Origin: Tribonema minus
Lineage: Eukaryota; Sar; Xanthophyceae; Tribonematales; Tribonemataceae
Length of the DNA stretch: 64,000 nt
NCBI GenBank assembly: GCA_017506865.1
Contig: JAFCMP010000548.1
Coordinates: forward strand, 434,001-498,000
Direction: 5' to 3'
Below the pieces are notes generated by a model, which was not told where the DNA came from, searched no databases, and saw only the letters and a program-made list of their open reading frames with translations. Below are positions 28,370 to 62,000 of this stretch, piece after piece. The first letter of the stretch is position 1. Every line of letters starts with the position of its first letter. Position numbers and translations under genes: made by a program.

Positions 28370-30172
28370 ATGCCTTCGAAGAGGGGCAAGAAGGGTAAGA
28401 AGGGAGATGACAGCAGCGATGATGGGGCAGCTTTAGATCCCCTCGCTCATCTCAAAAAGGGAGGCAGAAGAGGTGCAGCAGACAGCGACGATGAGCCTCC
28501 TGCCCAGCAGCAGGGCAAGAAGGCGGGGAAGAAAGGCGCCGCAGGGAAAAAAGGCGCTGCAGCTGCAGCCGACAGCGATGATGAGCCACCTTCGAAACCC
28601 GCAGCCCCTGCTGCACCGGCCGGTGGCGCCAAGAAGAAGAAGGGCGGAAAGAAGGGCAAGCGCGGCGGCGACGACAGCAGCGACGGAGAAGCCCTGGACC
28701 CTCTGGCGCACTTGAAGAAGGCTGGCAAGAAGGGCGCCGCTGACAGCGACGAAGATGATGAGGCTGAGCAACCACCTGCACCAGCGGCAGGCGGCAAGAA
28801 GGCCAGGGGCAAGAAGGGCAAGCAGCAGCAGCAGCAGCAGCACGACTCCGATGCAGATGGCAGGCCTGCCAAGGGCAACAAGGGCGCCGCAGCGGCGATG
28901 CAGCTGAGCGACGATGACGATGACCGAAGCGACAATGACGAGCAGCAGCATTCAGCGCGCTCGTTGTCGCCGCCGCCGCCAAAGGGCGGTAAGAAGCGTG
29001 GCAAGGCGGCGGCGCGGCGCGGCGGCGATGCCGCCAGCGACGACGACGCGGGCAGCGCTGAGCCTCCGCCCAAGCAGCAGCAGCAGCAGCAGCAGGGCGG
29101 AAAGAAGGGCAAGAAGGGGGGACGCAGAGGCGCGGAGCCATCGGACGATGAGGAGGAGGCCGCGGCGCCTCTGCCGCCGGCGAGCAAGGGGAAGGGCAGC
29201 AAGAAGAAGGGCGGCGGCCGCGCCGCTGCGCAGGCCGATGCAGACGACGAGCCGCCAGCTGCCGCCGGGGGCAAGAAGAAAGGCGGCGGACACGTCCTCG
29301 CCATGTCCGACTCAGAGGACGATGAGGAGGAGGAGGAGGAGGAGGTACAGCCGCCCCCATTTGCCGGCAAGGGGAAGGGCAAGGGGGGGAAGAAGGCGGC
29401 TGCGGCAGCGGCGGCGGCATCAGAGTCTGAGGAATCTGAGCAAGAGGCGCCGCGCCGCAAGGGCAAGGGGGGCGGCCCGAAGGGCAAGCAGCAGCAGCAG
29501 CGGGGAGGCGGCGGCGGCGGCGGCGGCAGTGGCGATGAGGGGACGCCGCCCAGGAGCAGCAACGCTCATGCGCTGCAGGCAGCAGCCTTCGCAAGCGACA
29601 GCGATGAAGCCGATTCCGACGCGATGGACGTGGAGGAGCCGGAGGAAGTGGCGCCGCCGCCGCGCAACGGCAAGCAGGGCTCGAAGAAGCAAGACAAGGG
29701 GACGGGCAAAGCTCGTGCAGCGTTGCCATCATCAGACGAGGAGAGCGATGGCGAGGCGCAGGCGGCAGAGGCGGCGGCAGCGCAGCAGCGGCGGCGGCTG
29801 CGGCGGCAGCGGCGGCGGCGGCAGCGGCAGCAGCGGGCGGCGGCAACAGCGACGATGACTCCGCGGCGCAGCGCAAGAAGTCCAAGAAGGACAAGAAGGA
29901 GAAGAAAGAAAAGAAGGAGAAGAAGGACAAGAAGGACAAGAAGAAGAAGCGCAGGGATGAGGACGACAGGGCCTCCTCCGACGAGGCGCCAGCCGCTGCG
30001 GCAGAGGAGCGCAATGGCGGCGGCGGCGGCGGCGACGGCGGCATCGCTGCCGTCACGGAGAAAGTCAGTGCCCTGAGCATCATGCCGCGCGCGCTGCCGC
30101 CGCCGGCCGCGAAGAAGCTGTCCGTGGCGCTGCCGCCGCCGCAGCCGCTCGCGCCGTTGCCGCCGCCGCTGG

Positions 30173-30208
<36 letters not shown>

Positions 30209-33200
30209 TGGAGCCACAAGCGCAGGCGGCAGCAGGTGCCGGCAAGGTGAGCAAAGCCCGGGTGTCGCGGCTCTGGCGCAGGCATATTGGCAGTCTTTGG
30301 CTGCTGTGATGTGTACCACAGACATTCCGCAATTACGGGTGGAATTGAAGTTTGCCCAACGTGCAGTCTGGGACTCGCTCAAGAGCGGTGAGCCTGATAT
30401 ATTCATGGCATGTGATTGGTGATGGCATTGTGTACAGGACGCTTAAAACGCTCGTTGTGCATGCATCGGCGGCGCTTGCAGCGCAAAATTGGCGTTGTGC
30501 TTTTTCACTATTCATCCATGCACGCACGCTCGGCCATTGCGCTGTCAGTAACGCAGTGTTCACGCAGTGCCCATCTGCATGCCATCGCCGGCGTCGCCGC
30601 CGCCGCTGGTCCCCCCTGTCTGACAGAGGGCATCACGAATGCTGACGCGTGTGCCCATGTCACCTGTGGCCGCACCCCGGCCTGTTCGCGCGCCATGTGT
30701 GCCCTTCACATGGATTTTTCTGTGTGCTCTGTTGACACTTTATGTGTGACGTCAAGTACTGTCCTCTGGCCGCCACGTGTCCTCTCCTCAAAATCTTGGT
30801 GTGCCTAGGATGACACTTGTCACGGTGACGTCGAGCGCCGCCCTCTGATAGTGCGACCCCCCCTCTCCCGCGCTCTCTCTCTCTCGCGCGCGCGTGCAGC
30901 CCAAGAAGGAAAAGAAAACGAAGCTGCAGCTCAAGCTGGAGGCGGCGGCCAAGGCGCGGGAGCTGGCGGATGCGGCGGCAGGAGTAGCGGCGCCGCCCGC
31001 AGCAGCAGCAGCAGCAGCTGCGCTGGCAGCAGGAGCGGCAGAGGCGGGAGCAGCAGGGGCTGCCGCCGCTGCGCCAGCGGTGGGTGCCGATGCTGCTGCT
31101 GCTGAGCCTCCGCCACCGGAGCCGGCGGGTCCCACGGAGGAGGAGCTTGCTGCACAGCAGGCCAAGGAGGAGAAGAAGGTGAACAAAGGCTGATGTTGAA
31201 GTTGAAAGGCTGTATTGAAGTTTAAGTTGAAGTGCAGCCAGGGCGCTCGATGCGGAATCCTGGATGGTTCTCTGCTGGCGCTGTGCGTATGGATGACCAA
31301 GCTGCCACCATTGCCTGGCGGCGCATGCAGCGGATATGCATTCGTCATGTAGTCTACATGGGGAAAAAGTAGCAGATATGTGAGTGACATCGAGGCACGG
31401 CATATGAGGGCGGTGAGGATCGATGGCAGTTCAACTTTGAGGTGACCGGCACACAATCTTACAGATTCATCCTGTCCCAAGCAACGCCATCTGAAAACCT
31501 TTGCCCTGCTGGCACCGTGACCTTGCCACCCGTCCATCAGGAGAAGAAGCAGAAGGAGCGCGAGCGGCTGGAGCGCATAGCGGACGAGGACAATGATGAC
31601 GAGTACTACGGCAGCGACCACGAGCTGCGCAACAAGGGCCCCGCGGAGACCCTGGAGCAGGAGGTGGATCGGCTGGTGGCGGAGCAGGAGGCAAGTTGAA
31701 GTTGAAGTTGTTGCCAAGTTGAAATTTGAAGTTGCTGCGCCGGTTGGACGCGTCCTCGTCACTCTGAGGTTAAGGTTGTTGTTGCGCCGGCTGACGTCTG
31801 TATCACTTTGAAGTTGAGGTTGCTGCAGTGGCTGTGGCGTCTGCATCACTGGTTGGTAAACAGGGGTTTCAATTACCTGCACAACTTGTGCAGCAGGAAT
31901 GAAGCATCGTAGACCGCGAAGTCCTGTTTGGAGCAGGGCATGTGAGGCATTTGCGCATAGGGTTAGCTAACCTCACATTGAATACAAACCCCTTCTTTTA
32001 GCCCTAAATCTCACTCAGGAGGCAAGTTTAAGGTGAATTTGTTCCGGCTGGAAGCGTCTGCAACACTTTGAAGTTGAGGTTGTTGCGGTGTCTGGAAGCG
32101 TCTGCATCACTGGTCGCAGAAAATGCGTTGATCATGTGCACACCTCGTGCGGGATCGAGCATCATAGACTGTCAAGGTCTGTTTGGAGCAGGGCGTGTGT
32201 GTGAGGCATCGGCACACGAGACGAGACGCCAACGCACGTCAACTTAACCTGGACCCTGACCTAATTCTAGATAATCTTAACCCTCATTGCAACCTCACCC
32301 CAACCCTAACCTGCGTTGACGCATGATGGGAGCGCCTCACATGTACCAAAGGCAGCGTGGTAGCGTTGAGCGCAGTCAACGGACGAGCCCTTACTTCCCC
32401 TCGCTTGCCCATGAATGTATGCCGCGCGAGGCAGTGTGATGTCACCCCATGGAGGCTGACGGCGGCGGCTGTGCGAGCTTCCAGCCACTTGCCATGCCGC
32501 TGCGGTCATGTGATGTGCAGCCCACAATCGCATCGCTGGCATGACAGCCTCCGTTGAAGCTATGCACACCTTCAATGCTTCACAGTGTGACGCGATGCTG
32601 CGGCGTCGGCGCGCACCGCAAACACGGGCCTGCCGCCGGCATGTACCATGCAGGCAATGGTCGCGTCATCGCATCACCCAAAGTCCAGCGAATTCTACGC
32701 ATGGCCTGATCTCAGCTCACGACTTACAAAGTAGACGACCATCTACACTGTGGCTGACAGTAACGTTGCTCTGTCTGTCGCGCACGCGCAGCCGCCGCAA
32801 GGCTGCGAGTCACGCCGTCGCTGCGCCGTTGCTGCAGCATTGCAGCATTACCGTTGCTGCAGCATTGCAGCATTGCTCAGCCGCCGCCTGCGATGACCGC
32901 CGCCGCGCCACTGTCGGCGTGCGCGGCGTCCGCGCTGCCGCGGGTGGTAGCTGCCATTGCACCACTGCATACGACTACTGCCTGCGCCCATTCCTCAGCC
33001 ATTGGCCATTCCCGCAGCGCTCAATTGTCATCATTCGCACCGACGCGGCAGCGCCACCGTCCGATACCATATTCCTTGCCTCAGTGTGATGCCGCGCCAC
33101 CGTTCAATACCACATACCCGATGACTCAGTGTGATCACTCACTGTGACACTGTATCTGCCTCGCTCGCCGATGCACTCGTGGCTGGGGCGAGCAGGAGAC

Positions 33201-36200
33201 GATGGGCAAGCGACAGCACCATCATATAAGACCTAGCCTCAGCGCGCTGACTCACTGTGACGCTTCGTTTGTCTCGCTCGCGCTGGCACCTGGGTTGCGG
33301 CGCGCAGGAGAATTCGAGCAAGCAATAGCACCACTATAAGACCATGTACCCCTATTCTCAGCGCGATCGCTCACAGTGACGCTGCATCTGCCTCGCTTGC
33401 GGTTGGTACTTGGGTTGCGGGGAGCAGGAGAAGACGGGCAAGAAGGTCAGCGCGCGGCAGCGGAAGAAGCTCGCGCAGGACGTGGAGGCGCGGCGGCGCA
33501 ACGTGGCGAGCGAGCTGGCGGAGGAGGCGGCGCACAGGTGAAAATTCAACTCTAGCCTCAAACTTCAACTCTAGCCGTTCGACATCACAATATGCGTGCA
33601 GCTACTGAAATCAGTGGGGGGCAGCGGCGCAATGTGGCGAGCGAGCTGGCGGAGGAAGCAGCGCACAGGCAAAACTTCAACCATGGTATCAAACTTCAAC
33701 ACCATCATTATGCGTGCAGCTACTGTATATCAGTGGGGGGCAGCGACGGCGCAACGTGGCCAGCGAGCTGGCGGAAGAGGCAGCGCACAGGTGAAAACCT
33801 TTAACCCTAGCCTCAAACTTCAACACAATGCAGCTGTATCAGAGGGGGCGACCAACCCTAGCCTCCTCTCACGCAGCCCTATCAGTAAGGGTGCATATTG
33901 GTTGTGGGGGCAGGTTTGACTTAGGTTTCCAGCCCTGCATAGCCTTGCGCAAGTAGATAGCATCGGGTCTGCAGTGGAGGCCGCACTCAGCTGACACACT
34001 GACTTTGAGCACTGCTCATCATCGCATTTACACACACTGCCCCTCTGCCTGGGGTCATCTGACTTGAGCCTTCTACACGCTGCATGACACGCGCGCTGGC
34101 TGACGAGGTGAGCCGGTATCAATGACATGACGCACGGGGTGTGTGCAGCTTGAACAAGCCCCGGGCATCAGCCCCACGGAGCCTCCAAGTCTTTTTCTGT
34201 CAGACCCCAGTGACACCACAGGTACATTTCAGGCAGCTATACCACAAGTGCGTTCAAAGCGGCAGCACCATTGCAGGACCTGCCGCAGCGCAGCAAAACG
34301 CGCGTTCCGCGAAGCGGCGCGGCTGGAGCCGGCGCGGCGCAGCATTCTCGCTTTGGTGCAGGCACCCACATCCCATTCATACATGCCTCCTCTTTTCTTT
34401 CAGTTGCGCCATCACCGCAGTGCTTGTCGCCATGAGCTACAGCTCTTCTGATCGTGCATGCGGTCACTTGCGCGCCGTTCGCGCGTGCATATTCCACTCT
34501 TATCCTCCGTTTCGTGCGGCGTCGCTCGCCGCGAGTCGCAGCGCAGCGCGGTTCTGACTGTGCTCGGTGCGCAATGATGATGATGCTCCGCCGTGTATGC
34601 GCATGTGCGCAGGGAGGGCGCGCAGTTTGCGTGCAGCCAGAGCGCCGTCAACGAGAACGACCCCACGTGGCAGAACTCGCTGGACGTCATCATACCGCAG
34701 TTCACCATCTCGGCCATGGAGAAGACGCTCTTCAAGGACTCGTCCCTGCAGGCAAGTCTGAGTCCCTTGTGCTACCGCCCGCGCGTGTGTTACGGTGTTG
34801 AACTGTGTGGATTGTTCAAGTCCTTGCACTGTGTGTTACTTGCAGTGTCTGACCTGCCGCGGGCGCGGTGTGGGCGCATTTGCGTTTTGAACATCATCAC
34901 AACGACCCTGAACCACGGGTGAGGGTGAGGGTGAGGGAATAGCCCTACGATTAGGGTTCCAAACCAACCCTAACCAACAATGCGCCCAAGCCTTCAATCG
35001 CAACATGCATGACTTTGTTGTGATTCATGACTCATGTCGCTGCAATCATCTCTTATCGTCTGCTGCATCGATCGAAGTGGTGCCTGCTTGGGTCACGGCG
35101 AGAGCCGCTGTGACCTCGTCAACCTGGCATTGAAGTAGCTTATGAGCATAGATCCAGATGCCATATACATGAGCGGCTACACGGGGCACGCTTATGGTGG
35201 CATGTGCGCCATGCCGTGCGTGCTGTGCCATCAGCATGTGTGCAAATCATTGACTCACCATTCTCCAAAAATCAGCACGCCCTGTCACAGGCTCGCTCTC
35301 TGTGTGTCGCCGCACTCCGCCACTTCAACTGCCGCATGTGACGCCCCCCCCCTCCCCCTCGCCCCCCAATCAGATTGTGCACGGGCGCAAGTACGGCCTG
35401 GTGGGCCCCAACGGCGCCGGCAAGTCCACGCTGCTCAAGATGATCGCCGCCAAGGAGCTGCGTATACCGCCGCGCGTCGACTGCCTGTACGTCGAGCAGG
35501 AGGTCGTCGCGGACGACACGCCCGCCGTGCAGGCCGTCATGAAGGCCGACAAGGAGCGCTGGGCGCTGCTGCAGGAGGAGAGGTGCGTCGCCCGCTTGAA
35601 GTTTCATTGGACGCGGCTGATTTGAAGTTAAGGTAGTGCAGGCGAGTGGTCGCGGACGGTGCGCTCGCTGTCATGAAGGCCGACAAGGAGCGCTGGGTGC
35701 TGCTGCAGGAGGAGAGGTGCATCGCCCGCTTGAAGTTTGTGGACGCAGCCCCTACTTGAAGTTGAGCAGTGCAGGAGGTTACCGCGGACGACGCGCACGC
35801 CGTGCAAGTTGTCATGAAGGCCGCACAAGAGCGCTGGGCGCTGCTGCACAACGAGAGGCTGTGCGTTACTGACACCCATGAACTCATGGACGCGGCTCGT
35901 ACTTCCTTTTCACGCGCAACTGAAAAAGTCGCTCTCAACCCCCCTTCCCTGCCGCCTCCGCCGCGGCGCAGGCGACTGGACCGCGCACTGCGCACAACGA
36001 GTTTGTCTCATTGCGACCATGGAGGGCTCAACCCCCCTCCCCACCCGCCCTCTCTCTTCATCGGTAACCCATTCCCATGTGCAAATTGCCAGTCATTCTG
36101 ACACACAAACACTCACACACACACACCCTCACGTGTCTTCTTGTAGGCGGCTGGACCGCGCGCTGCGCACAAACCCAGATGACGAGGACCTCAACGCGCG

Positions 36201-39200
36201 CCTGCTGTCCGTGCACGAGCGGCTCGCGGCGCTCGGCGCGGACGTCGCCGAGTCGCGCGCGCGCCGCATCCTGCACGGCCTCGGCTTCGACGAGGATATG
36301 CAGGTATGTGTGTTTCTCTCATGAGTACGCCTCGCAGTCATGTGTGTATGCGCACTCACGTCCGCGTGTGAAGACTTATGCGGAGCACATATGCGTGCGG
36401 ACGTCGCCGAGTCGTGCGCGCGCCGCATCCTCCACGGCCTCGGCTTCGACGAGGACATGCAGGTGCGCGCGTTTGCCCATGATAACTGGTACAAGGTGTT
36501 GATGTCGCCGTTGACGGGGTCATGCAAGCGCACGCGCGCAGTGCTCATCCAGTCTAGGGTGTGCAGGCGTCATATTGGCGTCTTCGACGCACAGGTCGCT
36601 GCGTCGCACGCGCGATGGCCTCGGCTCCGACGACGACACGCAGGTGCGCGCGCGTGCTTCTGGTGACTGCGGTGACTGCGCTTCGCAGCGCATACATGTG
36701 CGTACTTGTTTCCAGAAATGTACAGTACTGCATTTGAGGTGCGTCAGAAGTTTACAGGCTTCAACGAGCGCATTTGTGCGTGCGTGTACGAATGTAAAAG
36801 CGGTGCTTAGCGCGAACGACGGCGCGTCTCGCACGCGCGGCATCCTTCGCGACTTCGCCTCGGACGATGACGTGGTTGCTGTGTGTGCGCAGTGCTCATC
36901 CTCGCTGGGGTATGCATGTACTTCGAAGTATGTTTGTAACGCCATCATGTGGGCTTCCTTGGACGCCGCCGCGCCGCGCGTGCAGCCTTAGCGCCAGGGT
37001 TAGTGCTAGTCCTGGCCGTAACGCGTTAGTGTGTACTCGCTCATCCGCCCGCTTCTGTGTGGTGTGAAGACCATCAGTGCTCCGCAGCTTGCATGACGGT
37101 TCAGAGAACGCTTCTGCATGAGGTTGAACTGAGGTGTGCAGAAGCGGCGCACGCATCGCAGACTCGGTCGCGCGCCGCCTGCCATCTTCACAGCTCTGCC
37201 TCTGCGAAAGCTGGCAGGTGGGCATGGTTGGCGTGCATCACCGCACTTGCACCTCAAGTGTGCAACATTCAAAGTTCAAGCAGCTGCGTGCAGGCAGCTC
37301 ACCGGCCCCCATCCTCATGGAACCGCAAGCTTGCGTACACATTGCAGCGCTGACTCAAGGAATAACGCTGCAGACGCCGACGTGATTGGACCATTGCCGC
37401 GCAGAGACGTGACTGGCGGGCAACGCACGCACACGCGTACGGCGATTGCCTGCGAGGTTCGTGTACCCCCACAGGGCCTGGATCTTCGGTGACCCTGACT
37501 CTGACTCTGACTTGGTGTCCCCGCATCGCTGCCGCCGCCGCCGCCCCCACTTGCCAGGTCAAGCCCACCAAGCACTTCAGCGGCGGGTGGCGCATGCGGA
37601 TCTCGCTCGCGCGCGCGCTGTTCATGGAGCCCACGCTGCTCATGCTCGACGAGCCCACCAACCACCTCGACCTCAACGCGGTCATCTGGCTCGACGACTA
37701 CCTGCAGGTATGTACCTACCGCTAACCCAATCTTCAAACTGTAAGTGCATTGACCCCTTAACCCTAGCCCCTGACGGCTAGTGCGCGCGCTTAATGCCAC
37801 CTAGACCTCAACGCCGGCATCTGGCTCGACGACTACCTGCAGGTACCTGCCTACTCCTCACTCAAAGTTCAACTGTAAGTGCATTGACCCCTGACCCCAG
37901 CCCCTGCTAGGCCTAAACCTGAATGCTGCACCCGGGACCACCTCGGCCTTAACGCGGTCATCTGGCTTGACAACTACCTGCAGGTACCTGCCTACCCCTA
38001 ACCCTACCCTTGACCTGCTTACCCCTAACCCTAGCCCTGATGGCGAGTGCTTGCTGTACCTGCCAGCTCGACCTCAAGGCGGGTCATCTGAGCGATGACT
38101 ACCTGCAGGTACACTGCGTAACCGTCACCCTTACTTCAACTGCGAGTGCATGCACTCATCGTACTTTGCACTGATGGCTCCCCCGACAGCGCGGTAATCT
38201 AGTGTGATGATTTCCTGCAGGTGTGCAAGAAGATTCTGCACCTGTTGTGCGCACCGTTGAGAACAGACTCAGTGTGCAGAACAGCAACTGCAGAACAGCA
38301 ATGCGGAACACCTACTCATCCCCATGAGTGCCCATCCCCCCCGCCGCCCTCTTCATCTCGCACACTTTTACTCTCCCCCCTTGCAGCGCTGGAAGAAGGC
38401 GCTCCTCGTCGTCAGAGTCAGTGTGCTGAACAGCAACTTTCTATCTGGAACCCCCCCCCCCCCCCCCCCCTCTCCTCCCGCGCATGGTGACCACCCCCCC
38501 CCTCCCCCCTGCAGCGCTGGAAGAGGACACTTCCTCGTGGTCAGCCACGACCTTTCAAACAGCGTGTGCGAAGAGATCCTCCACCGACTATGTGCATAGT
38601 TGATTAGAGAATCGATGTGCAGAACAGCAGCCTTCTTTCCGGAACCACCACTTGTCAACACGAGTCCCCCCCCCTTCCCCCCCCCCCGCAGCGCTGGAAG
38701 AAGACGCTCCTCGTGGTCAGCCACGACCAGGACTTCCTCAACAGCGTGTGCGAGGAGATCCTGCACCTGGACGACCAGAAGGTGAACCAGTACAAGGGCA
38801 ATTACGACACGTTCAAGGACATGGAGGCGCAGCGGCGCGCGCAGGCCGTCAAGGAGTGGGAGAAGCAGCAGAAGCGCATCGCGTCGCTCAAGCGCTCGGG
38901 CGCGTCCAAGGGCAAGGTAACTGCGCTGCGGCAACTTCAACTTCTGTTTTGTTGTGTATGCTGGTGCCCCCCTAGGTTGAAGTCGGTCAACGGGCGTTTC
39001 AGAAGGGCGCGTCACTCAAGCGCTCGGGTGCGTCTAAGGGCAAGGTGCGTCACCTTTCACTTCAAACCTTCGTCTTACATTTGAAAAACCGGTTATGAGG
39101 ACGCCACAGTAGGTCAGCGTGTGTTTTGAAGCGCATCGCATTGCTCATGCGGTCCGGCGTGTCCAAGGGCAAGGTACCACTGCGCTGCATAAACTAAGTC

Positions 39201-42200
39201 GAAGTTGGCTCTGAAGTTGCCTCAACTCCAACTTTACGTCTCGTGTTTGCGAAGCTGAGGCTAAAGTAGGTGGGCGTGTGTTTTCAAGTGCATCGCGTCG
39301 CTCAAGCGCTTGGGCGCGTCCAAGGGCAAGGTACTGTGCTGCGTCAACTTCAACTTTCCGTCCGTTGTGTTTGTGAAGCTGGTTCCCTCTATGTGAGCTT
39401 AAAGTTGGTTGGCGTGTGTTTTCCAGCGCATCGCGTCGCTCAAGCGCTCGGGGGCGTCCAAGGGCAAGGTATGTAGTGCGCTGCGTCAACTAAGTTGAAG
39501 TTGGCTCTGAAGTCGGCTCAACTTCAGCTTTCCATCTCGTGTTTGCGAATCTCAGGCTAATTAAAGTATGTCGGCGTGTGATTCCAAGCGCATTGTGTCG
39601 CTCAAGCGGTTGGGCGCGTCCGAGGGCATGGTACTGCTGCATCAACTAGTTGAAGTTGGCTCTGAAGTTGACTCAACTTCAACTTTGCGTTGTTTGTGAA
39701 GGTGAGGCTAAGTAGGTCGGCGTGTGTTTTCATGCGCATCGCGCCGCTCAAGCACTCGGGCGCGTCCAAGGGAGGTACTGCGCTGTGCGAACTTGAACCT
39801 CGTGTCTCGCGTTTGTGAAATCGGTTCCCACTGTGTGAGCTTAAAGCTGGTTGGCGTGTTTCAAGCGCATAGCGTCGCTCAGGCGCTCCGGCGCGTCCAA
39901 GGGCAAGGTAACACTGCGGCTGCGTCAACTGAGTTGAAGCTGGCTTCACTTCAACTCTCCGTCTCGTGTTTGTGAAGCTGACCCCCCCTTGGAAGGACGC
40001 TAAAGTATGTGGCAAGCGTTTGGCGCCGCTCAAGCGGATGGGCGCAACCAGGGCCAAAGTACTGCGCTGCGTCAACTTCAATCTTCCATCTCGTGGCTGT
40101 GCAACGGGTTCCCTCTTTGCGAGGACGCTCAAGTAGGTCAGCGAGTATTTTCAAGCGCATACCTCGCTCAAGCGGTCGGGCACTTCAAGGGCAAGTACCA
40201 CTGCGCTGTGTCATCTTCACCCTGTCGGTGAAGCTGGTGCCCCCCTTTGTGAGGAGGTTGAAGTTGGTCAACAGGAGTTTTTCAAGTGCACGGCGTCGCT
40301 CAAGCGGTCAGGCGCGTTCAAAGGCAAGGTAGCATGTCGCCCCCTAGCTTCAGCAATGTCGAAGTAGGGTGTGATGTAAACGCCGGCTTTACATCTGTCC
40401 AGTTCTGAGCGAACTGCATCGGTGAAGCGGTCGGGCGCGTCCAAGGCAAGGTACTGTACTTCTAACTTCAAGACTGTGTCTCCCCTGCCCCTGCACAACT
40501 CAGGCGCTCGCAGTAAAGAAAGTGCGCTCGCGCAAGCCTGGCTTACAACTACTGGCAGTCTTACCCATACCTCTGTCGGAGCGAGACACTACTCAATACT
40601 CGCTACACCGCACAGCACTTCTCCTTACTAATAAAAAAAGCAGTAAAGTTGACACCATCACAGCACTATCACGGGTCATGACCACGGCACTCCATGTGTT
40701 TCTCACTCCCCTCAGCCCACACGATACTGGCGAAAACAAAGAAACACGGCTTCGCACACACTCGCGAGACCACACCGCGGCACTCCGTATTCTCACGCCC
40801 CCTTCGCCCCCCTTTCCCCGCACTTGTTATTCCATGCATACAGGCCGAGGACACTGTGAAGAAGGCGCGGTCGCGCGAGCCCGGCGCCGGCAAGAAGAAG
40901 AAGGACGCCGCCATCGCCACGGGGCAGGAGGCGGTGGACGAGCAGACGCTCGCCAAGCGCCCGCGCGAGTACGTGGTGACGCTCCACTTCCACCCCGTCT
41001 CGCGCCTCACGCCGCCCATCATCGAGGTACACATTCGGTTTCTGCTGGTTTGCACGGTGTGACTCGCCGCTTCCGCTGTGTGTCCGACGCCCACGCCCTA
41101 CACGTCATGCCTACGAACTTGAGGCTGCATACCTGCGTACAGAACGTGGTGACGCTCCACTTCCACCCCGTCTCGCGCCTCATGCCGCCCATCATCGAGG
41201 TATGTCTGTCGTGCTTAACACGGCGTCTGCTGTTGACTCTTGCGCATGCGGTGCACCGTGTGACGGGCGCCGCTTCCACTGAGTGTCCCACAACTGACGC
41301 CTTCGAAGTCATTGAGATCATGTACATACCTACGGTACGCGGCGACGCTCCACTTCCACCCCGTCTCGCGCCCCACGCCCCCCATCCTCGAGGTACATAC
41401 AGCATCTGATGTCGACGTTCTTACCTGAGATGCATGCTGTGACGCGCCGCTACACCGTGTGTCCCATGCCTGACGACCACGGCACTGTACCTACGGTATG
41501 CGCTGGTACTCCACTTCCACCTCGTCTCGCGCCTCGCGCCGCCCATCATCGAGGTACGTGCGGTATCTTCTTGATGCGCGCGACGTGGCGTTCTGTTACT
41601 CGGCGAAATCGTGAGCGCCATCAAAGCGGCGTACATACGTACGGTGGTTTGTTGCTCGTAATTGGGCGCCACTGCCTGCAAGTACGGCCACTTTGCGCTT
41701 CGCGCCCGCCCGCAGGTGCGCGACGTGGCATTCCGCTACTCTGCAAATGCTTTTGTCATTGTGAGCGGCATCAACGTAAGCGCCAACAAAGCCACATGCA
41801 TACGTGCAGTCATCCGGTGCTCACATGTAGGGGTGCTCTTTGTGCGTACATGCCGCTGACTGCATGTACCGCCACTATGCGCTTTGTGCCCGCGCGCAGG
41901 TGCACGACGTGGCCTTCCGCTACTCGACGAACTCGCCCATCATCGTTGGCGGCGTCGACTTTGGCATTGACATGGACTCGCGCGTGTGCATCGTCGGGCC
42001 CAACGGCGCCGGCAAGACGACGCTCATCCGGCTTCTCACGGTGAGCGAGCGCTGCCACAGTGAACCTCTGCTGTAACCCGCTTCTGGCGGTTAAATAATA
42101 GAAGTATTGGATTTGCTACTTCAAGTTATCGGATTTGCTACTTCAAGTAGAAGCATCAGGATGGCAGCAGAATGGCAGCAGGAGACGCTCAACGGGCCGG

Positions 42201-44647
42201 CACGACGACGCTCATCCGTTTCCCCACGGTGAGCCTTGCCACAGTGAAAACCTGTGCTCTATGTAGCCCTTTTTAAGCGATTGCATCAGACTGGGTTTGG
42301 ATACCGTCTTGTTCGCTATCATGGACCGGGTCCAATATTTGCAACAGTTTTAACAGCAGGACCCAAATCATAGATCACCCTTTTAACTGGCCAACCCAAA
42401 ATGTTGGAGTACCTATCATGCAACTGCATCTCAGTAACTTTCGCTGTTCGTGTGTCTTTCAAGAACATCATCATATGACTGTATGCCATGACAATGCAGC
42501 GATTAAATCGGCTGGAAGCATGCAAAAACTGCGAGCACCATACATGCTTGAAGCAACAGAAGCCACAGCCACCAGCATGATCCTGCTGATTGCTGGCAGA
42601 AGGTTTCTGGGCTTTTGAACAGCAACGATCTCGTGAAGCAGGCACTCCATCGCTGATCCCGGCATATGGTTGTGGTTCCTTATGAATCAGGCACCGCGAC
42701 CGCGCCCTCTCTTGCTGCAGCAACAGCTGCAGAGGCAATCCTCGCGCCACGCCAGGACCACTACAGCAACTAATCTCAGTCTGGTGCAACAGGTGTATTT
42801 CGCGTAGAAAGCCAAGAATGCGTTGCCTGCCAGCTTCCACAGCTGCCTCTGCAGCGTCCTTAGCTTTCTTAGGCTTCGTGGGCGGGCCTGCCGTCGTGGG
42901 CCTGCCGCCGCCGCCCTGTTGTTAATTGCCCACGGACGTCAACTTGTCCAAGGTGAGGTTTTTGTTTGTTGAAGTTTGAGTCGAACCGGAAATCACCAGC
43001 GCGCACACTGGGTGTCACAAGCGCCTAGATGTATGCTGGGGTTGTGTTCTGAGGCCGTTCCATATATGGCGGTAACCCTTTTAACTGGCCATCCCAAACT
43101 CGCGGACCCCCCCCCTTTTTACTCTCGTACCGCAAATGTTGGACCTGGTCCATGATATCGAACAAGACGGTACTTCGGGTAGGAGTATGAGAACAGCAGC
43201 AAGCAGACACCCAACCGGACCTGACATGCACCCCCCCCCCCCCCCCCTTGCAGGGCGAGCTGGAGCCCACGGAAGGCGAGATCTGGCGCAAACCCCCCCC
43301 CCCCCCCCCCCCCCCCTCTCCCTCTTACCCACCTGCCTACCTCAAAAGGACGCAGCCGCCTGAACCCCCCCCCCCCCTCCCCCCTCTTCTCCCCCCATGT
43401 TGCGCCGCTGCCAGGGCGAGCTGGAGCCCACGGAGGGCGAGATCCGGCGCAACCCGCGCCTGCGCGCGGGCATCTACAACCAGCACTTTGTCGACCGCCT
43501 GCCGATGGACATCGACCCGGTCGCGTACCTGCGCTCCAAATTCCCGGAGACGACCGACTACCAGAGCGCGCGCAACCTGCTGGGGAAGTTCGGGCTCGAG
43601 GGGCACGCGCACACCATCAAGATGCGGGATCTGTCAGGCGGGCAAAAGGCGCGCGTCGTGTTCTGCGACCTGCAGCTCGCCGCGCCGCACATTCTGTTCC
43701 TGGACGAGCCGACCAACAACCTCGACCTCGAGTCAAGTGAGTGAACGAGTCACGGATGAGTCACGCATCAAGCAAGTGAATGAAGCGTATGCTTTCGAAT
43801 ATAGTGGTAGGCGAGGTCGGGTACGTGTTCTGCGACCTGCAGCTCGCCGCGCCGCACATTCTGTTCCTGGACGAGCCGACCAACAACCTGGACCTCGAGT
43901 CAAGTGAGTGAATGAGTCATGGTAATGAGTCATTGGGGAGACGTGGGTCGTACGGCCACAGGCGTGTGCGGTGATGCGCGCGGGTACGAGTGCAGCGGTC
44001 TCGGGTTTAGCACAACCGACAAGCGCAGCAAAGAAGCGGTGGGCTACTCACTCGTCGACCATACGCGGCTCCTGGTCACGACAGAGCACGCTATGCTAGC
44101 ACAGTGCCACACGGCAGATCAACACAGAGGTGGCGGTCATGCGATTGGTGTCTCGTCTCGCATGCGTGCTCCGATGCACAAACATGAAACGAAATTCTCA
44201 AAACATTTAAACTAAAGGTGTGAAAAGTCTTCAGATTATAATTCTTGCACACGCTTTGCTTGTCCGCCCGCGCGCGTGCGCCGCCTTTTCCTCAACTCGA
44301 CCCGCTCACCCGCTCCCGCGCGCCGCGCTGCCGCCGCGCCGCCGCCGCCGCTGCGCGCAGTCGACGCGCTCTGCCAGGCGATCCGCGAGTTCCAGGGCGG
44401 CGTGGTGGTCATCACGCACGACGCGCGCCTCATCGAGTCCACGGACTGCCGCCTCTGGATCGTCGACGACGCGCGCGTGACGCCGTGGGAGGCGGGCTTC
44501 GCAGACTACAAGGGCCACCTCCTGCGCCAGCTCGAGGCCAAGATGGTCGAGCAGGAGGCGCGCCGCGCCGCCAACATGGCCGCGCGGCAGGCGGCGGCGG
44601 CGCCGCCGGCGGGCGGCGGCGCTGCCGCCGCCGCGGCGCAGCGATGA
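28370..44647 (+). CDS. ABCF1/GCN20-type ribosome-associated ATPase
   Basis: Thirteen exons: 28370-30246, 30900-31178, 31541-31690, 33428-33537, 34613-34751, 35374-35582, 36147-36303, 37558-37707, 38692-38916, 40844-41026, 41900-42040, 43415-43736, 44361-44647. Phases agree from exon 2 on. The first ATP site has [14 protein letters not shown] (Walker A), [15 protein letters not shown] (signature) and [13 protein letters not shown] (Walker B). The second has [25 protein letters not shown] and [27 protein letters not shown] is its His loop. KRPREYVV and [16 protein letters not shown] match the ABCF1 linker closely. ABCF1 binds eIF2 and ribosomes and supports translation initiation in the cytosol; GCN20 relatives act in Gcn2 signalling. 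The N-terminus, about 620 residues of Lys/Asp/Ser/Ala low complexity, is longer than in human ABCF1. Exons 3 and 5 end in GC donors (GCAAGT). Stop is TGA. Confidence 0.93.
29768..29850 (+). other. Frame anomaly in ABCF exon 1 Ala tract
   Basis: The frame from the ATG and the frame that continues to the exon 1 donor ([17 protein letters not shown] onward) differ by one step. The change falls inside a GCG/GCA-rich tract. Either a small intron lies here, or bases were gained or lost in the repeat. Without a change of frame the ORF ends at 30076. Confidence 0.75.
32018..32040 (+). repeat. Echo of ABCF exon 3 GC donor
   Basis: caggaggcaagtt recurs about 335 bp after the true border at 31690, again as GCAAGT followed by GAAGTT-like sequence. 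It lies inside a 1.7-kb intron. Confidence 0.5.
33144..33430 (+). repeat. Two acceptor-side echoes of ABCF exon 4
   Basis: The pattern cag(t)tgacgct-cat-tgcctcgct, then the acceptor and gagaa..gggcaag, appears near 33144-33210 and 33256-33325 before the true copy at 33373-33445. Period is about 112-118 bp. Confidence 0.8.
33595..33795 (+). repeat. Two donor-side echoes of ABCF exon 4
   Basis: Copies of the [15 protein letters not shown] codons plus donor end at 33668 (GC donor) and 33790 (GT donor). The true end is 33537. Spacing is 131 and 122 bp. Confidence 0.9.
35636..35870 (+). repeat. Two donor-side echoes of ABCF exon 6
   Basis: Copies of the [16 protein letters not shown] region end at 35716 (GT kept) and about 35857 (GT shifted by inserted bases). 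The true end is 35582. GAAGTT-type hexamers sit between the copies. Confidence 0.9.
36390..36880 (+). repeat. Donor-side echoes of ABCF exon 7
   Basis: Copies of the [18 protein letters not shown] region end at 36462, 36643 and about 36872, with decreasing identity. A fourth trace lies near 37148-37200. An acceptor-side echo of the same exon stands at 35968-35995. Confidence 0.85.
37790..38222 (+). repeat. Four donor-side echoes of ABCF exon 8
   Basis: Copies of the [12 protein letters not shown] codons plus GT donor end at 37842, 37983, 38108 and 38220. The true end is 37707. Spacing is 135, 141, 125 and 112 bp. The intervening sequence holds telomere-like CCCTAA words. Confidence 0.92.
38221..38640 (+). 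repeat. Acceptor-side echoes of ABCF exon 9
   Basis: Poly-C tract, CAG acceptor and cgctggaagaag-like exon start recur with exon starts at 38387 and 38515 before the true one at 38692. A more decayed copy begins near 38221. All share the tail tgtgcagaacagcaac. Confidence 0.88.
38990..40455 (+). repeat. Eleven donor-side echoes of ABCF exon 9
   Basis: Copies of the [14 protein letters not shown] codons with donor end at 39044, 39173, 39330, 39468, 39630, 39773, 39906, 40058, 40195, 40328 and 40450; the true end is 38916. Spacing ranges from 122 to 162 bp (mean about 140). GT follows in all eleven. They fill most of the 1.9-kb intron. Confidence 0.95.
41140..41560 (+). repeat. Three donor-side echoes of ABCF exon 10
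   Basis: Copies of [17 protein letters not shown] plus GT donor end at 41199, 41392 and 41553; the true end is 41026. Spacing is 173, 193 and 161 bp. Confidence 0.93.
41570..41790 (+). repeat. Acceptor-side echoes of ABCF exon 11
   Basis: Copies of the VHDVAFRYS start occur near 41576-41615 and at 41716 (with CAG acceptor), before the true start at 41900. A donor-side echo of the same exon ends near 42228. Confidence 0.85.
43225..43310 (+). repeat. Acceptor-side echo of ABCF exon 12
   Basis: A C17 run, then ttgcag and GGCGAGCTGGAGCCCACGG start at 43254, repeating the true exon start at 43415. A second C-run follows at once at 43291-43316. Confidence 0.9.
43815..43912 (+). repeat. Donor-side echo of ABCF exon 12 with Walker B
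   Basis: A nearly exact copy of the last 85 or so bases of exon 12, encoding [19 protein letters not shown], with the TCAA|GTGAGT donor at 43903, 167 bp after the true border at 43736. Confidence 0.95.
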
Positions 44648-47129: not shown

Positions 47130-47830
47130 GCGCCGAGATGGGCATTGCAGTGTGGTGCGCGCTCGTGCTCTGCGCGCGGGAAGTGCTGTCGCGCCGTGGC
47201 GACCAGAGAATTCATCCGCGCACAGAGCGCAAGCCGCACACGTGCGCACGCAACGCACTCATCGCCCGACAAAGCGCCGGCGTGCATTACGCGGCCGCAG
47301 TCAGAGAGCGCGCGTGGATGCGCACGTGACTTCATCAGCCGGAAGGAGCCAGGCGCGCGACCCGCCCAAAGAATCGTCGCATGCCACGCGCGCATGCGCC
47401 CCCACCGGCGCTGCCATTCTATTGCACCTCTGTCAGATGTACACGCGTTGCTCCTGCGGGCTGTCGGGCGCGTGCCTCTGCCCGTGCTCTGGACAGGAAG
47501 TGCTGTTGCGCTGTGACAACCAGACAACTCACCCACGCACAGAGTGCAAGACGCGCGCGCGCATGACGCATTGGTCGCCCAACAAAGCGCTGGCGCGCGT
47601 TACGCGGGTCTGCTGCAGTCAGAGATAACGCCTGAATGTGCGGGTGGCTTCATCAGCCGGAAACAGCTAGGCGCGGGTTTCGCTCAAGGTGATGACACTG
47701 CATGCCACGTGCGCATGCGCCCACCAGTGCTGCCGTTCTATCATTGCACCTCTGTGAGTTGTTTACATTGCTGCTGCGGGCCGCGCGCGTGCCTCTGCCA
47801 CGGGCACTTGCGAGGCTGCAGCATTGCACC
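47130..47830. repeat. Tandem duplication, period about 340 bp
   Basis: Units beginning gaagtgctgt-gcgc-gtg and including cgcccaacaaagcgc, ttcatcagccggaa and cattgcacctctgt recur at about 47180 and 47500; the second runs to about 47830. Identity looks near 80 percent. One frame in the second copy reads GGFISRKQLGAGFAQGDDTA. Confidence 0.75.
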
Positions 47831-56038: not shown

Positions 56039-59000
56039 CTAGCTGGCCAGCAGGCGCGCGTTGCGCATCTGCAGGAAGCTGTACGAGCGCATCATGCGCT
56101 GCACGATGCTGAGCTGCTGCCCCACGGTGACGATGCCGCGGTCGCCCATGAGCTCGCACAGGTCCTCGTTGAGGTTGTGCAGCTCGTCGCGGCGGAAGCG
56201 GCGCTCGTGGCGCCCCACGAGGCGGCGCACCTGGTACGCCAGCAGCACCAGCTTGCCCTGCGCGGCGGCGGCGGCGGAGGGGGAGGGGGGGGAGGGACGC
56301 GTGATTTCCTGGCGATGCGCAGCCGACTGGCGTATTTCTGCCGCAGCGCGGCGGGGGGGGGGGAGGGGGGGGGAGGGAGGCAAGCAACGCTGGGTGGAGC
56401 GCGGCATATTTGGCGCAGTTCTGCACCAGCTTGCCCTGCACGGACGCGGCGCGGACGCGGCGGAGGGGGTACAACAGCGATGCCTGGCAAAAGCGGCGTA
56501 TACTTCAAGAAACCTCGTAGTTCATCAGACGATGTAGCGCAATTTAGCGCAATTTCAGCGTCGTGACACTGGAGGAGAAGCTGAAGAGTACACTCGTTCA
56601 AGCAACAGGCACGAGCAGGTGATGTAGGTGTCACATAAAAGCCGTTTTGTAGCGTTTGGGTTAGGGTTAGGGTTAGGGACGCTGCGCCTCAACCGCACCA
56701 CTGATCCAAGCAATGCAGTGTTGTTGTTCAGCGGTAGTCATGGCATTCAATGACGCGCCGCCGCCGCCTCATGCACCGGCAGCACCGGCATGCCGCGCGG
56801 GCAGCAGCAGCGGCGGACGCAGAGAAAGGCAGGTGCGCACGCTGGTGCAGAGGCAATGATGCTGCCCGCTGTCGCTGCTCTGTGGCACTTCCTCGATAGA
56901 ATGACTGCAGCTCGCCGCAGCGAAAATAGCACTCCCAGTGCCTAACGAAAGCCGGCGCATCTGTCGCACTACCAGCGGCATCCCGTCTGCCTTGGGAGCA
57001 CAGCAGCCACGGCGCGAGTATATGTGGGGCACTCTACTGTTGCGTCTCGAACTCTCTGGGTTCCGCTGCAGTCATGGCGTATGCGCCCCGCGGTGACGCG
57101 TCAGAGCGTCGCCCTGAGACCGGAAGCTACTCTACCTCTAATAAGCACCTGCTGAGCGACGCGCGCTCCCGGCAACTCACCAGGTCAAGCTCGTCGAGCG
57201 TCTTGAGGTCACCATCGGGGTGCGCGTGTGCGCCGCCGCCGCCGCCGCTGCCGTCGTCGTCCGCTGCTGCTGCGCGGGCTGCCTCTGCCTCGAGCGCTGC
57301 TGCCACGGCGCCCGGCGTGACCTGCGTGCGGCGAGAGCAGAGGTTACGACGCGTAAGTTACGGTTTGCGTCTGCGGCGTCACAGATGGGGCCTTTGGGTT
57401 CTGGCACCGAGCGCGCGCGCGCAGCGGTGCGCTGAAGCAGCTGGTGAAACCGCAGCGTACGTCAGTGAGTGAGGTGACGACGCGATGACGCCCGGCGTGA
57501 CGTGCAGCCTCAGCATTCGCCAGAAGAAGAAGCAGCCGCAGTGATGCAGCAACACACCCTGTTTGCCCTCATTCAGGTTGAGGTTTGGCCAGGCCACTCC
57601 CTTGTCGGCACCTGCGCAATCATAAAATACGCAGCCTGCCCAAAACGACGCCTGAATTGGGCCACGCATTTGCCAAGACCCGGACTGTCCGCCCCTCCCA
57701 CGGCCCCCATCGACCGAGCAAGCGCACCGCAGAGACAGCGCAGCTTCTTCTTTTCTCAGCACCAGGCGACTCTCCGAGCACCCCACTCTACACCTGTGTC
57801 AAGCTGGCAGGCGCTGCCGCGAAACACTGAGGCAGCGGTACGCGTGCACACTGCCCCCCCCACACAAACTGGACAACGGAGAAAAAAAGAACATCGGCCG
57901 CGCTCACCTCCACACGCGGCTGCTGCTGTTGCGGTGGCGGCGGCAGCGGCGGCCGCCCGAGCGCCGCGCCTGTCGCTATTCCTTCCGCCACGCCGTCTGG
58001 CGGCGGCGGCGGCGGTGGCGCGGAGCCTATGGCGGTGAGCAGCGCCGCGGAGCCGTGCGGCGAGCGCGGCGATCGGCAGAACACCGGCGGATACTTGGCG
58101 TCGCCGCCTGCGCAGCAGCAACGCGCGCACCGCACCGGTTTGCATCATGGTGTTTGGTGTACCCGGAGCTGCACTTAACGCAGTCGCGGCGTGGCGAGGT
58201 TGTACAGTATGTAGTGCATGTGTGAGAAATATTGCGCAGAGCACTGCTGAGACATGGGGCGGGAGCCACGCCCTCTTGGCAGGGCACCGGCGGGTACGTG
58301 GCGTCGCCGCCTGCGCGCGGCACCGCAGGGCGCGCAGGCTTTGTCGCGCGCATGTGTCACCGGCGCTGCGCGTCCGCTGCCGGTTGCGGGTGCAATTTGG
58401 CGTGCGCCACAATCGCGTTGCACACCGCTGAGTGGTGGTGGTCAGTACAGAATGAGGGTCAGGGCTGCTGCGTTGCGTGGCGAATGCAGGCATAACCTCA
58501 ACGTCACCTGTGCAGGGCTCGTACCGACAATTGTGCAGCACAGCCATGATCGCCGCGCTGCACGGCTTGATGCGCCGTATGGCGCATTGAGCACAATGAA
58601 CTTGACCTGGACTTGATGAGTCACCCGCACCCTTGCGCGCCCCGTAGTAGCACAGCCCCAACTTTCTCAAAATAAGCAGCCGCTCCAGGCCCAGCATTTT
58701 AAAGCACGTTGAGTGTAACTTCCAACATCAATTGATGACTCCCCCCCCCCCCCCCCCACCCGTAGCAGCGCATCCCCGAGTTCCTCAGGTTAAGCAAGCG
58801 CTCCATGCCGAGGATGGTGCAGCGCAGCGCGATGATCGTTGCGCTGCACGAGTTGACGCGCCGCACGATCAATGAACTTCAACTTCAACTGTATGACCCC
58901 CCCCCCCCCCCCCCCCCCCCCGCGCGGTAGAAGCGCATTCCCGAGTTCCTCAGGTTGAGCAGGCGCTCCATGCCCAGCATCGTGAAGCGCAGCGCGATGA

Positions 59001-62000
59001 TCGTCGCGCTGCGCGACTTGACGCGCCGCACGGCGCAGTGAGTACAGTGAACTTCAACTTCAACTTCAACTTGACGAACTCACCCGCCCCCCCCGCGCGC
59101 GCGGTAATAGCGCATCCCCGAGTTCCTCAGGTTGAGCAAGCGCTCCATGCCGAGGATCGTGAAGCGCAGCGCGATGATCGTCGCGCTGTGCGACTTGCCG
59201 CGCATTACGCACCATGAACTTCAACTTCAACTTCAACTGGACGATATCACCCGCCCCCCCGCGCGCGCGGTAGTAGCGCATCCCCGAGTTCCTCAGATTG
59301 AGCAGGCGCTCCATGCCGAGGATCGAGAAGCGTAGCGCGATGATCGTCGCGCTGCGCGACTTGACGCGCTGCACGGCGCAGTGAGTACAGTGAACTTCAA
59401 CTTCAACTTGACGAACTCACCCGCCCCCCCGCGCGCGCGGTAGTAGCGCATCCCCGAGTTCCTCAGGTTGAGCAGGCGTTCCATGCCGAGGATCGTGAAG
59501 CGCAGCGCGATGATCGTCGCGCTGCGCGACTTGACGCGCCGCACCGCGTAGTACAGCGGGCGCACGGCGTGGTATGCGCCCGCCGCGAGCGCGACGGCGG
59601 GCACCGTCGCCATGACGCGCATGTTGAACTCGTTCTCGTGCATGAGGTCCTGCGGCACGGTTGAAGTGGCGAAAACAAAACCGCACAGTCAAGTGGCGTA
59701 AACAAAACCGCACAGTCAAGTGGCGACAACAAAACCGCACAGTCCCAGTGGCGAAAACAAAACCGCACAGTTCAAGTGGCGACAACAAAACCGCACAGTC
59801 AAGGGGCGGTAACAAAGACCGCACAAGTCAAGTGGCGATAACAAAGACCGCACAGTCAGGTGGCGTCAACAAAACAACAAGCTGTGGTCAGCCAGGGAGC
59901 ACGTAAAGGAGCTAGTAACTACAGGGAGACACATCCGCGGAGCATCCACACGCAGGAGAACGAGAAGGTATAGGCGACACTCTGACCTGAGTCCTGAGGA
60001 GCACGCCGTGAGGAATAGGCAGCAGACCCTGACCCGAGTACAGCATTCCAGCAAACGGCACCAGCACCAGCAAGCAACCCGACATGGGAGACAGCGGCAG
60101 CACCTCACCTCCATGGAGTTGAGGAGGACGAGCAGCTTGGTCTTCATGAACTGCAAGGGAGGGGGGGTGGGGGGGGGGGGGGGGGCATGAGCTCGCGTGC
60201 CGCATATTCCGCAAGCTGTGCCAGAGAGTGGGGGCAAATCCGGTCAGCACCAAGAAGTGCCAGAGTACTACAACACAAGCTGAAGTGATGGGGCGGGGGG
60301 GGGGGGGGGGTCTGTCTACCTTCAAGACACCTGGGAGGGGGGCTGTGTTTGGCTAATCAATGCCCCGTGGCCAGCTCTGCATCTCACCACCTATGCTGTC
60401 TGATTTCCATTTTCAAGCAAGAACCCGGCGGACGCCGCATGGCGCTTCTGCTGCTGCCGCGCACCCTTCCAGGTGAAGCTTCCTCCTCAGCACCGGGGAT
60501 GTGCATGCCGTTGGGCGCGCGCCGCTACGGCAGCGCTCCACCAGCGGCGCGTGCTGAAGCAGTGCTCAGTAGAAATCGCGCTGATGAAGGTAGAAAGATG
60601 CCCACGGATCGGGCGGAGAGGCGGACACTGCGCGCACGCGCTGAGCTAGGAACGGTGCGCACCTGACTCAACTCGGCCCCAAGATGCTGCGGCTCGTGTC
60701 AGAGATCCTCAGTCGCAGCCCCACAACAGTTTGATCTCGGTGACAGGGGCCCGTCAGCAGCAAGGCATCGAGGCGACTAACTGTCAGCGAAAAGCGGCGC
60801 TGCCGCGCGCGTGCATCGCAACCTTCCGACCATGATCACCGACAGCCGATGTTGCAGCTGCCGAGCTGCGGCTTTCGCTTTTGCTACGCACGAGCGGAGG
60901 CGAGGAGCACACGCGCGCCTGCCTTCTTTAACAACGTACCTGGACCTGGATCAGCAGCATGCGCACGATGTCGCCTGCGCGGCGGCACGGCGGCGCAGCG
61001 CACGCAGCAGCGGTTTGCGCACGTGAGCGACGTCACAATGAGGGTTCGGTACCACGTGTATGCCGTACGTATCAAGAGGAACCAGAAAGTGAGGCGCATC
61101 TTGCGCAAACCATTGCAGGGTCGTGGCAACGAGGCAGGCCGCGCAGTTGCCACGGCGACCATGCTGCATGCGTTAGAAGAGCGTGAGCGACGCATGACGA
61201 CAGCACTTGCGTGGTATGTGGATGGCAAGCTCCCCCGTGGACGAGGGGTGTTGGTGGACTTCTGAGAGTTGTGCGAGATGGTGTTGCCTTCAGCATTTCA
61301 CTGCGGCACGTCGCAAATGGGCGGCATGTTGCGTGCGCACGCTGCATACATGGCTTTTTTACGGTGACCTCAAGTTGCCAGGCACCTCATGATCGCTCGC
61401 CAGATACGATGCAGCACGCGGCATCAGGCGGCGGACATCACGCACATCCCCAATGTAGCCAGCATGCCCATACACGTTGTAACTTTGTCTACTCCGATGT
61501 ATGGGCGACGCCGTTCACCCTGCTGAAGCCCATGCCAGTGGCACCTGACATATATGTAGAAGTATACCACTTCTCATGCAGCCAAGCACTGCTCACGCGC
61601 CAGCATCTGTCGCGCCGGCACATTGACCTTCTTACTTCAAGTTTAACTCCTGTCAAACTGTGTCTCACTTGACAAAATAAAGTGCATGGCGGTGACGATG
61701 AGCAATTGCCACTCATACAAGACGGCCCTCATGACCCAGGTTGGCGTTGAGCGCAGGGGCGTCGCACCTTGCTGTGCTACTTCAACTTCAGCTCTATTCT
61801 CTTGCACCTCTCCCCTGATACGATGCGTCACCCCCTGATGCGTCGCGATGTGCCATCCTGCTTCAACTTCAACTGTATTCTCCCTCTCACCAGATCCTAC
61901 TTCAACTTCAACTCTTGCTCTCGCACCAAGATACGATGGACCAGCATGCTCACCGGATACGATGGAGCGCATGGCGGTGACGATGGACTTCTCGTACTCG

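Follow-up and report, generated by a model that had tools for sequence, protein, structure and literature searches.

In 2014 Vaughn and Bennetzen reportedly described patch-mediated tandem duplications in rice. Small direct duplications are a known class of mutation, and the copies of exon ends and their splice sites in introns of Tribonema minus that we report here (called echoes in the following) are a variant of it. In mouse cells, breaks from paired nicks give rise to tandem duplications when they are repaired, and CST-guided end-joining of staggered breaks by Pol alpha-primase generates small tandem duplications (PMC8355091). Like echoes, these are direct, local and short and come without a mobile element, and such repair is a plausible maker of echoes. 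That study deals with insertions below 100 bp and with overhangs of 43 and 50 bp, whereas echoes lie about 160 bp apart and are found at many exon borders.

Three further systems resemble the echoes in part. A tandem duplication within or across exon-intron sequence in Drosophila also copied the splice signals (PMC2891723). That case concerns new introns in single genes, whereas here introns were apparently lengthened, repeatedly and in many genes. In the tandem exon arrays of Tetrahymena LRR genes, units of exon plus intron are tandemly repeated as well, but there whole exons of 90 bp were multiplied within one gene family, while here partial exons were left as intron (PMC6564038). Introners, which show a bias to nucleosome linkers, share with echoes the bulk creation of intron sequence; they form dispersed families, whereas each echo is private to its own locus in our sample (PMC9860276). 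In the open-access literature we recognised no description of exon-border echoes as a genome-wide feature, which is weak evidence of absence.

Structure of the ABCF Gene

The window, a stretch of 64,000 nt (contig JAFCMP010000548.1, positions 434,001 to 498,000), contains a gene for an ABCF protein of the ABCF1/GCN20 type (Table 1). Joining of the ten exons that were built by hand gives a single open frame of 640 aa. In a protein search with 7,988 scored candidates, a protein of Chrysoparadoxa australica was at the top of the best 120 listed (72% identity over 96%), followed among the matches listed by Nannochloropsis, Heterosigma and diatoms, while Ectocarpus ranks lower. These matches place the genome with the ochrophyte stramenopiles, probably close to brown and yellow-green algae, rather than with green algae. 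Alignment to six of the 120 listed homologues revealed no echo-sized insertion in the ABCF protein. The gaps are mostly 1–2 aa long; the larger ones (6 and 5 aa) are extra residues in P0001, and a 4-aa stretch that is extra in Tribonema relative to P0004 lies away from exon junctions.

The model of the lysine-rich 5′ part is less certain than the rest of the gene. Its first exon carries an internal repeat (28378-28819; lag 261, 67% identity), a duplication retained in coding sequence. The introns at 31691 and 34752 appear to start with GCAAG (GC donors). One intron harbours an inverted pair of 41 bp (42302-42342 and 43132-43172), which contrasts with the direct echoes.

Exon Borders Are Repeated within ABCF Introns

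For the detection of donor-side echoes, the last 60 bases of an exon together with the first 40 bases of the following intron were searched in the remaining intron; acceptors were treated likewise, and 200 dinucleotide shuffles of each intron served as control. The test covered 11 introns and started downstream of the first exon's donor. Donor-side echoes exceeded all 200 shuffles in nine of them (E_c, E_d and E_f to E_l), with 28 copies in total; at E_c they are almost wholly intronic and include no more than 6 exonic bases. Acceptor-side echoes exceeded the shuffles in six (E_d, E_g, E_i, E_j, E_k and E_l), weakly so at E_j. Self-comparison of the sequence and alignment of the eleven-copy array agree with the shuffle-tested echoes. 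The original prediction had donor-side echoes after exons 3, 4 and 6 to 12, which is an exact match to the nine introns if its exon 3 is the one at 31541-31690. With the same numbering, the acceptor-side echoes that it placed before exons 4, 7, 9, 11 and 12 were all confirmed against shuffles, and a weak extra one precedes exon 10. By eye, a possible fourth donor echo of exon 37558-37707 is seen near 38200.

Table 1. Positions in the window of the ABCF exons, of the echoes at their borders and of one further echo array.
Feature	Position	Strand	Distances or number of copies	Basis or remark
ABCF (ABCF1/GCN20-type), ten 3′ exons	33428..44647	+		reading frame, homology
ABCF exons 1-5 of ten	33428-33537, 34613-34751, 35374-35582, 36147-36303, 37558-37707	+		hand-built
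ABCF exons 6-10 of ten	38692-38916, 40844-41026, 41900-42040, 43415-43736, 44361-44647	+		hand-built
Lysine-rich 5′ part of ABCF, with exons ~30900-31178 and 31541-31690	28370..31690	+		reading frames, predictor; less certain
Weak repeat of intron start after exon 31541-31690	32016..32043	+	331	nearly all intronic
Acceptor-side echoes before exon 33428	33156..33322	+	two: 120, 232	also self-comparison
Donor-side echoes after exon 33428-33537	33614..33824	+	two: 131, 253	TRF period 122
Donor-side echoes after exon 35374-35582	35667..35858	+	two: 134, 275
Acceptor-side echo before exon 36147	35970..35997	+	175
Donor-side echoes after exon 36147-36303	36403..36870	+	three: 159, 340, one older	border unaligned in the older one
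Donor-side echoes after exon 37558-37707	37797..38111	+	three: 135, 276, 401
Acceptor-side echoes before exon 38692	38375..38569	+	two: 177, 305
Donor-side echoes of exon 38692-38916 (E_i array)	39000..40471	+	eleven, ~140 bp apart	GT in 11/11
Weak acceptor-side echo before exon 40844	40513..40542	+		score 30 vs. shuffle maximum 24
Donor-side echoes after exon 40844-41026	41141..41557	+	three: 173, 366, 527
Acceptor-side echoes before exon 41900	41578..41741	+	two: 184, one other	border unaligned in the other
Donor-side echo after exon 41900-42040	42187..42261	+	188
Acceptor-side echo before exon 43415	43251..43294	+	161
Donor-side echo after exon 43415-43736	43824..43932	+	167	95% identity over 109 bp
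Echo array with the donor end of NCA2-like exon 59421-59649	58712..59552	-	period ~170

Some copies of the E_i array share an internal segment that is absent from others, and blocks of several units may therefore also have been duplicated.

Spacing, Orientation and Extent of the Copies

The median distance of the first copy from its border is 159 bp for donors and 168.5 bp for acceptors, and successive copies follow at a median of 161 bp. With 51/62 first copies between 110 and 190 bp, this is the usual spacing that had been predicted. The lag is similar for repeats without contact with a strong exon (median 151.5 versus 162). Within 600 bp, 245 pairs are direct and 7 inverted, which argues for direct duplication rather than hairpin elements and supports the original view that the units span exon-intron borders.

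The exonic part of an echo has a median length of 53 nt (55 for donors, 52 for acceptors). It is longer than 90 nt in six of 97 copies, and at least four of these six belong to one NCA2 donor. Comparison to a uniform length distribution (KS p = 4.5e-9 and 3e-7) counts against random breakpoints, and the medians are still 51 and 52 in exons of at least 200 nt. The 89 curated exons have a median of 240 nt with 4 below 100 nt, the lower tail of this distribution being hidden because curation dropped exons shorter than 60 nt. Neither the 53-nt median nor the indels in the exonic parts, nearly all of which shift the frame, fit tandem exon duplication or mutually exclusive exons, in which the whole exon is copied and the frame is kept.

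Many units appear incomplete. In pairs of at least 90% identity, the aligned length reached at least 0.95 of the lag in 4/44, and two of these four are at one place; a laxer extension rule makes 18/49 first copies complete to within 35 bp. The match stops no more than 6 nt from the splice site in 8/25 copies with an exon identity of at least 0.95. Incomplete units point either to fast loss of the intron part, or to filler between copies, or to a copied piece that often ends at the border. For the units that do not reach completeness, later indels or filler could be the explanation.

Decay and Age Order of the Copies

When adjacent copies were compared, the nearer one was more exon-like in 35 pairs and less exon-like in 13 (p = 0.002), and mean exon identity was 0.933 for the nearest and 0.884 for the farthest copies of 28 arrays. 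Copies nearest to the exon tend to be the youngest, and their greater likeness to it suggests that the working border was the likely template of successive duplications. The decay with distance that had been predicted is thus present as a trend, and as a tendency only: copies 3 and 4 of the E_i array are more exon-like than copies 1 and 2.

The exonic parts of 122 echoes (6,833 aligned bases) contain 635 mismatches and 44 indels, 43 of which shift the frame. Differences between exon and echo amount to 6.2, 6.5 and 15.2% at codon positions 1, 2 and 3, those between two echoes to 11.5, 13.1 and 20.9%. About twice as many differences between echoes at positions 1 and 2 are as expected of independent copies taken from a constrained exon, and synonymous exon changes can explain the additional differences at position 3. 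In the 49/97 echoes with a clearly alignable intron part, substitutions reached 11.7% in the intron part and 7.7% in the exon part, which is close to the ratio of two-lineage to one-lineage change and argues for mostly neutral decay; the 48 echoes that failed the homology test for the intron part lie outside this comparison. Indels are nine times more frequent in the intron than in the exon part of the same 49 echoes. The asymmetry between their exon and intron parts is mainly due to indels, which we presume to reflect fast intron turnover. As judged from the sequences, echo decay appears to be mostly neutral.

Some data stand against full neutrality. Of the changes, 317 are synonymous and 315 nonsynonymous, and 3 are stop changes, while 180, 442 and 12.6 are expected by chance. 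By arithmetic from these classes, synonymous change in the exon lineage is about 1.5 times that of the echo. Changes confined to one echo are also unevenly distributed over codon positions 1, 2 and 3 (83, 95 and 136; p = 0.0005), a bias that can be mimicked when the exon itself changes from one copying event to the next. Echoes may have been under mild or transient constraint, or a few of them may have been swapped with the exon. Intron parts look much further decayed than exon parts (0.73 versus 0.87; 134/139 copies, exon identity >0.6), and identity between echoes is 0.793 for exon-derived and 0.645 for intron-derived parts, the exon part being higher in 58/71 pairs, which is a sign of constraint. 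Such values carry an anchor bias: exon-anchored alignments gave 0.875 for exon and 0.591 for intron (n = 123), intron-anchored ones 0.769 and 0.711 (n = 59). The case for constraint on echoes, which the similarity of the exon parts had suggested, was much weakened by the frameshifts, the codon positions and the split into substitutions and indels. The single-echo codon bias and the few stops are some signs that still allow some constraint.

The same differences bear on the assembly. That haplotypes or reads were joined in tandem to give an artefact is very improbable, considering that up to eleven ordered copies show evolution-like differences (377/635 are transitions), that 20/23 changes in the exon lineage are at third codon positions, that similarity declines with distance, and that contigs reach 2.45 Mb.

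Splice Sites within Echoes

When the anchor was placed clear of the border, GT was present at 43/59 donor echoes (49 with GC included) and AG at 33/39 acceptor echoes. About 42 and 29, respectively, are expected from neighbouring exonic bases, of which 0.84 (donors) and 0.87 (acceptors) were kept. An apparently near-complete retention of the splice dinucleotides (GT/GC in 74/82, AG in 56/57) shrank under this anchor. In a weight matrix derived from predicted donors of this genome, the median score was 5.3 for echo donors, 6.4 for real donors and -1.3 for random GT; by this measure echo donors are good and may be possible decoys.

The original prediction supposed that the copies multiply splice choices, and they might have been retained as alternative or decoy splice sites. 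The strong matrix scores of echo donors would suit this, as would GT throughout the E_i array, AG at slightly more acceptors than expected, the few stops, and exon-derived parts that are more alike among echoes than intron-derived ones. GT at donors is nevertheless near expectation, the frame is not kept, and alignable intron parts differ only 1.5-fold in substitutions. We consider such retention quite improbable, and no clear sign of echo sites being retained for use was detected in these sequences; the frameshifts and the dinucleotide counts lend no support to the supposed role in splice choice.

Echoes in Other Genes

About 0.26 Mb of the 158-Mb genome (554 contigs) were read. At lags of 60–600 bp, 199 direct repeats were found in 210 kb, whereas one dinucleotide shuffle of each piece gave none. 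In the full sample an echo was present at 41/76 donors and 33/85 acceptors compared to 80/509 random noncoding positions; these counts include ABCF, the gene that prompted the analysis, and the CCT genes L024 and L025, chosen for echoes already seen. After removal of these three genes, and of one exon counted twice through the overlapping loci L001 and L003, an echo remained at 24/53 donors and 20/60 acceptors compared to 46/401 noncoding controls (Fisher 2e-8 for donors, 4e-5 for acceptors). By subtraction of the window's other genes as well, some of which the original prediction had named, 20/42 donors and 18/49 acceptors are obtained. The CCT gene L027, which was fetched later and stands outside these counts, has an echo at 1/4 donors, at the unusual distance of 710 bp, and at 0/4 acceptors. 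Two further donors of L027 lie above their own shuffles and below the echo score threshold of 40. Echo load varies between genes.

According to the original prediction, nearly every intron end is echoed. This was too strong, since 44/113 ends carry an echo in the wider sample, while echoes occur in many genes and on many contigs of the ~0.26 Mb read and are not confined to ABCF. Three other genes of the window had also been named; one, NCA2 on the minus strand, was verified by homology, and the remaining repeats lie in predicted genes. Further direct repeats in the window, beyond verified exons, are at 47179-47799 (~317 bp), 21437-21703 (137) and 19168-19621 (139-192; units or lags).

The counts for ABCF rest on the hand-made exons, those elsewhere on borders from a simple self-trained gene predictor that are backed in part by homology. 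Homology was found for myosin (L009), CCT (L024, L025, L027), ABC-type ATPases (L001-L008), the largest subunit of RNA polymerase (L023), GST (L010), NCA2 (window), ankyrin (L011) and WW (L022). Three of the eight proteins searched (those of L013, L014 and a predicted gene on the left of ABCF within the window) had no Pfam match. With a raised exon penalty the predictor recovered 10/10 hand-made ABCF exons exactly at penalties of 10 and 12, and 9/10 at 8. After one more training round, the run from which the other borders were taken recovered 8/10 and called eight echo pieces inside ABCF exons, so that gene prediction is misled by echoes. Outside ABCF, counting was preceded by removal of exons that were below 60 nt or scored below 9 and, where two neighbouring exons were similar, of the weaker one. 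A segment of a Pfam profile matched a second time ~180–420 bp away in a few genes for CCT and kinesin; since echoes are short, such cases are too few for a rate.

Some loci with predicted genes have many repeats per 10 kb (41 in L009, 26 in L013, 28 in window positions 30001-40000) and other loci few, with a total of 4 in the 60 kb of L012 and L015, L016, L017, L018 and L019, and 1 in L023. L012 and L015-L019 have lower GC and few, if any, strong predicted exons, which suggests that the duplication process tracks genes. The GC-poor locus L021, with 6 repeats and no strong predicted exon, fits poorly with this.

The recurrent spacing of ~160 bp could hint at an introner-type or other mobile element that carries its own splice sites. 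No repeat family shared across loci, such as introners would form, was found in the 28 sequences (~0.17% of the genome). Of 20 cross-locus matches in these sequences (E < 1e-8), 16 are due to the overlap of L001 and L003, and the remaining four span just 47-129 bp, one being in ABC coding sequence. Since, moreover, exon sequence is the repeated part, we regard a mobile element as extremely improbable.

Probable Local Duplication Beside a Constrained Exon

We think it probable, although by no means certain, that gene-rich DNA of T. minus undergoes frequent direct local duplication, and that a copy straddling an exon border turns into intron and drifts. Gene-rich DNA would often be hit by direct duplications that mostly leave 110-190 bp between copies. 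Their possible source is repair at staggered breaks or at paired nicks, with filler perhaps inserted between copies. When a duplication straddles a border, the outer splice site would be kept, presumably the one in use, so that the mRNA can stay the same and the inner copy becomes intron. Selection would then hold the exon while the inner copy drifts, and with drift on one side only a border copy should be recognisable for longer than a duplicate within an intron. As a working border is duplicated repeatedly, the newest copy would tend to be nearest to the exon, and introns would lengthen at their ends. Growth of introns by tandem duplication across borders, as the original prediction had it, is in agreement with direct border-crossing copies in many genes and with the tendency to addition on the exon side; the proposed role in splice choice is not supported.

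Echoed ends are 3-4 times as frequent as echoed controls (~0.45 and 0.33 versus 0.11), which exceeds the twofold difference from one-sided decay. The excess may arise because indels remove intron sequence faster, or because borders are preferred targets. Random breakpoints also leave the short exonic part and the many incomplete units unexplained; for both, a filter by splicing or a border-directed mechanism may account. We favour a filter acting on survival, by which copies with more than about 90 nt of exon would be taken for exons by the splicing machinery and purged. Curated exons are rarely shorter than 100 nt. The near absence of echoes from L027 counts against local duplication as the explanation.

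Co-transcriptional splicing complexes, R-loops or a nucleosome positioned on the border are candidates for factors tied to splice sites. Such a factor could set the breakpoint ~50 nt inside the exon, and borders would then be duplicated more often than other DNA. The narrow exonic part, nearly equal for donors and acceptors and unchanged in long exons, speaks for this, together with the youngest copies whose match stops at the splice site, the more than twofold enrichment at borders, and the contact with a strong exon in 8/10 young pairs (at least 93% identity). Copy spacing is also near nucleosome-repeat size. Pairs of the same spacing nevertheless occur without a strong exon (of 130 pairs, 54 within 1 kb of one and 22 farther off). 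For pairs of all ages within 1 kb, the share touching an exon is 0.50 versus 0.40 under random placement, and symmetry between donors and acceptors is unlike a process that follows transcription. Direction of the duplications to borders is therefore unlikely in our view, though worth serious attention. It is likewise doubtful that introns lengthen mainly through a conveyor of border-directed duplications, starting ~50 nt inside the exon, advancing at nucleosome-repeat spacing and leaving dated exon fossils.

Significance and Additional Observations

Lengthening of introns is usually inferred from old and erased events, and here the evidence persists at a third to nearly half of the sampled ends. 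The series of echoes are roughly ordered by age and have a built-in clock, the drifting echo being compared to the constrained exon. They also offer a natural test of the exon-definition idea, as good donor and acceptor copies on exon pieces of ~50 nt are apparently ignored by splicing.

Telomere-like runs (TTAGGG/CCCTAA, at least 2 units) are scattered over the window and L009-L027 (24 in total), and 10-mers of this kind exceed expectation 67- to 91-fold; these runs may mark repaired breaks. The motif TTGAAGTT/AACTTCAA is about 9-fold over expectation on both strands of the window and L009-L025 (128 versus ~14) and by eye is often near donors. The predicted protein of L020, which we take to resemble a D5-type helicase/primase of giant viruses, makes this locus a likely endogenous viral stretch.
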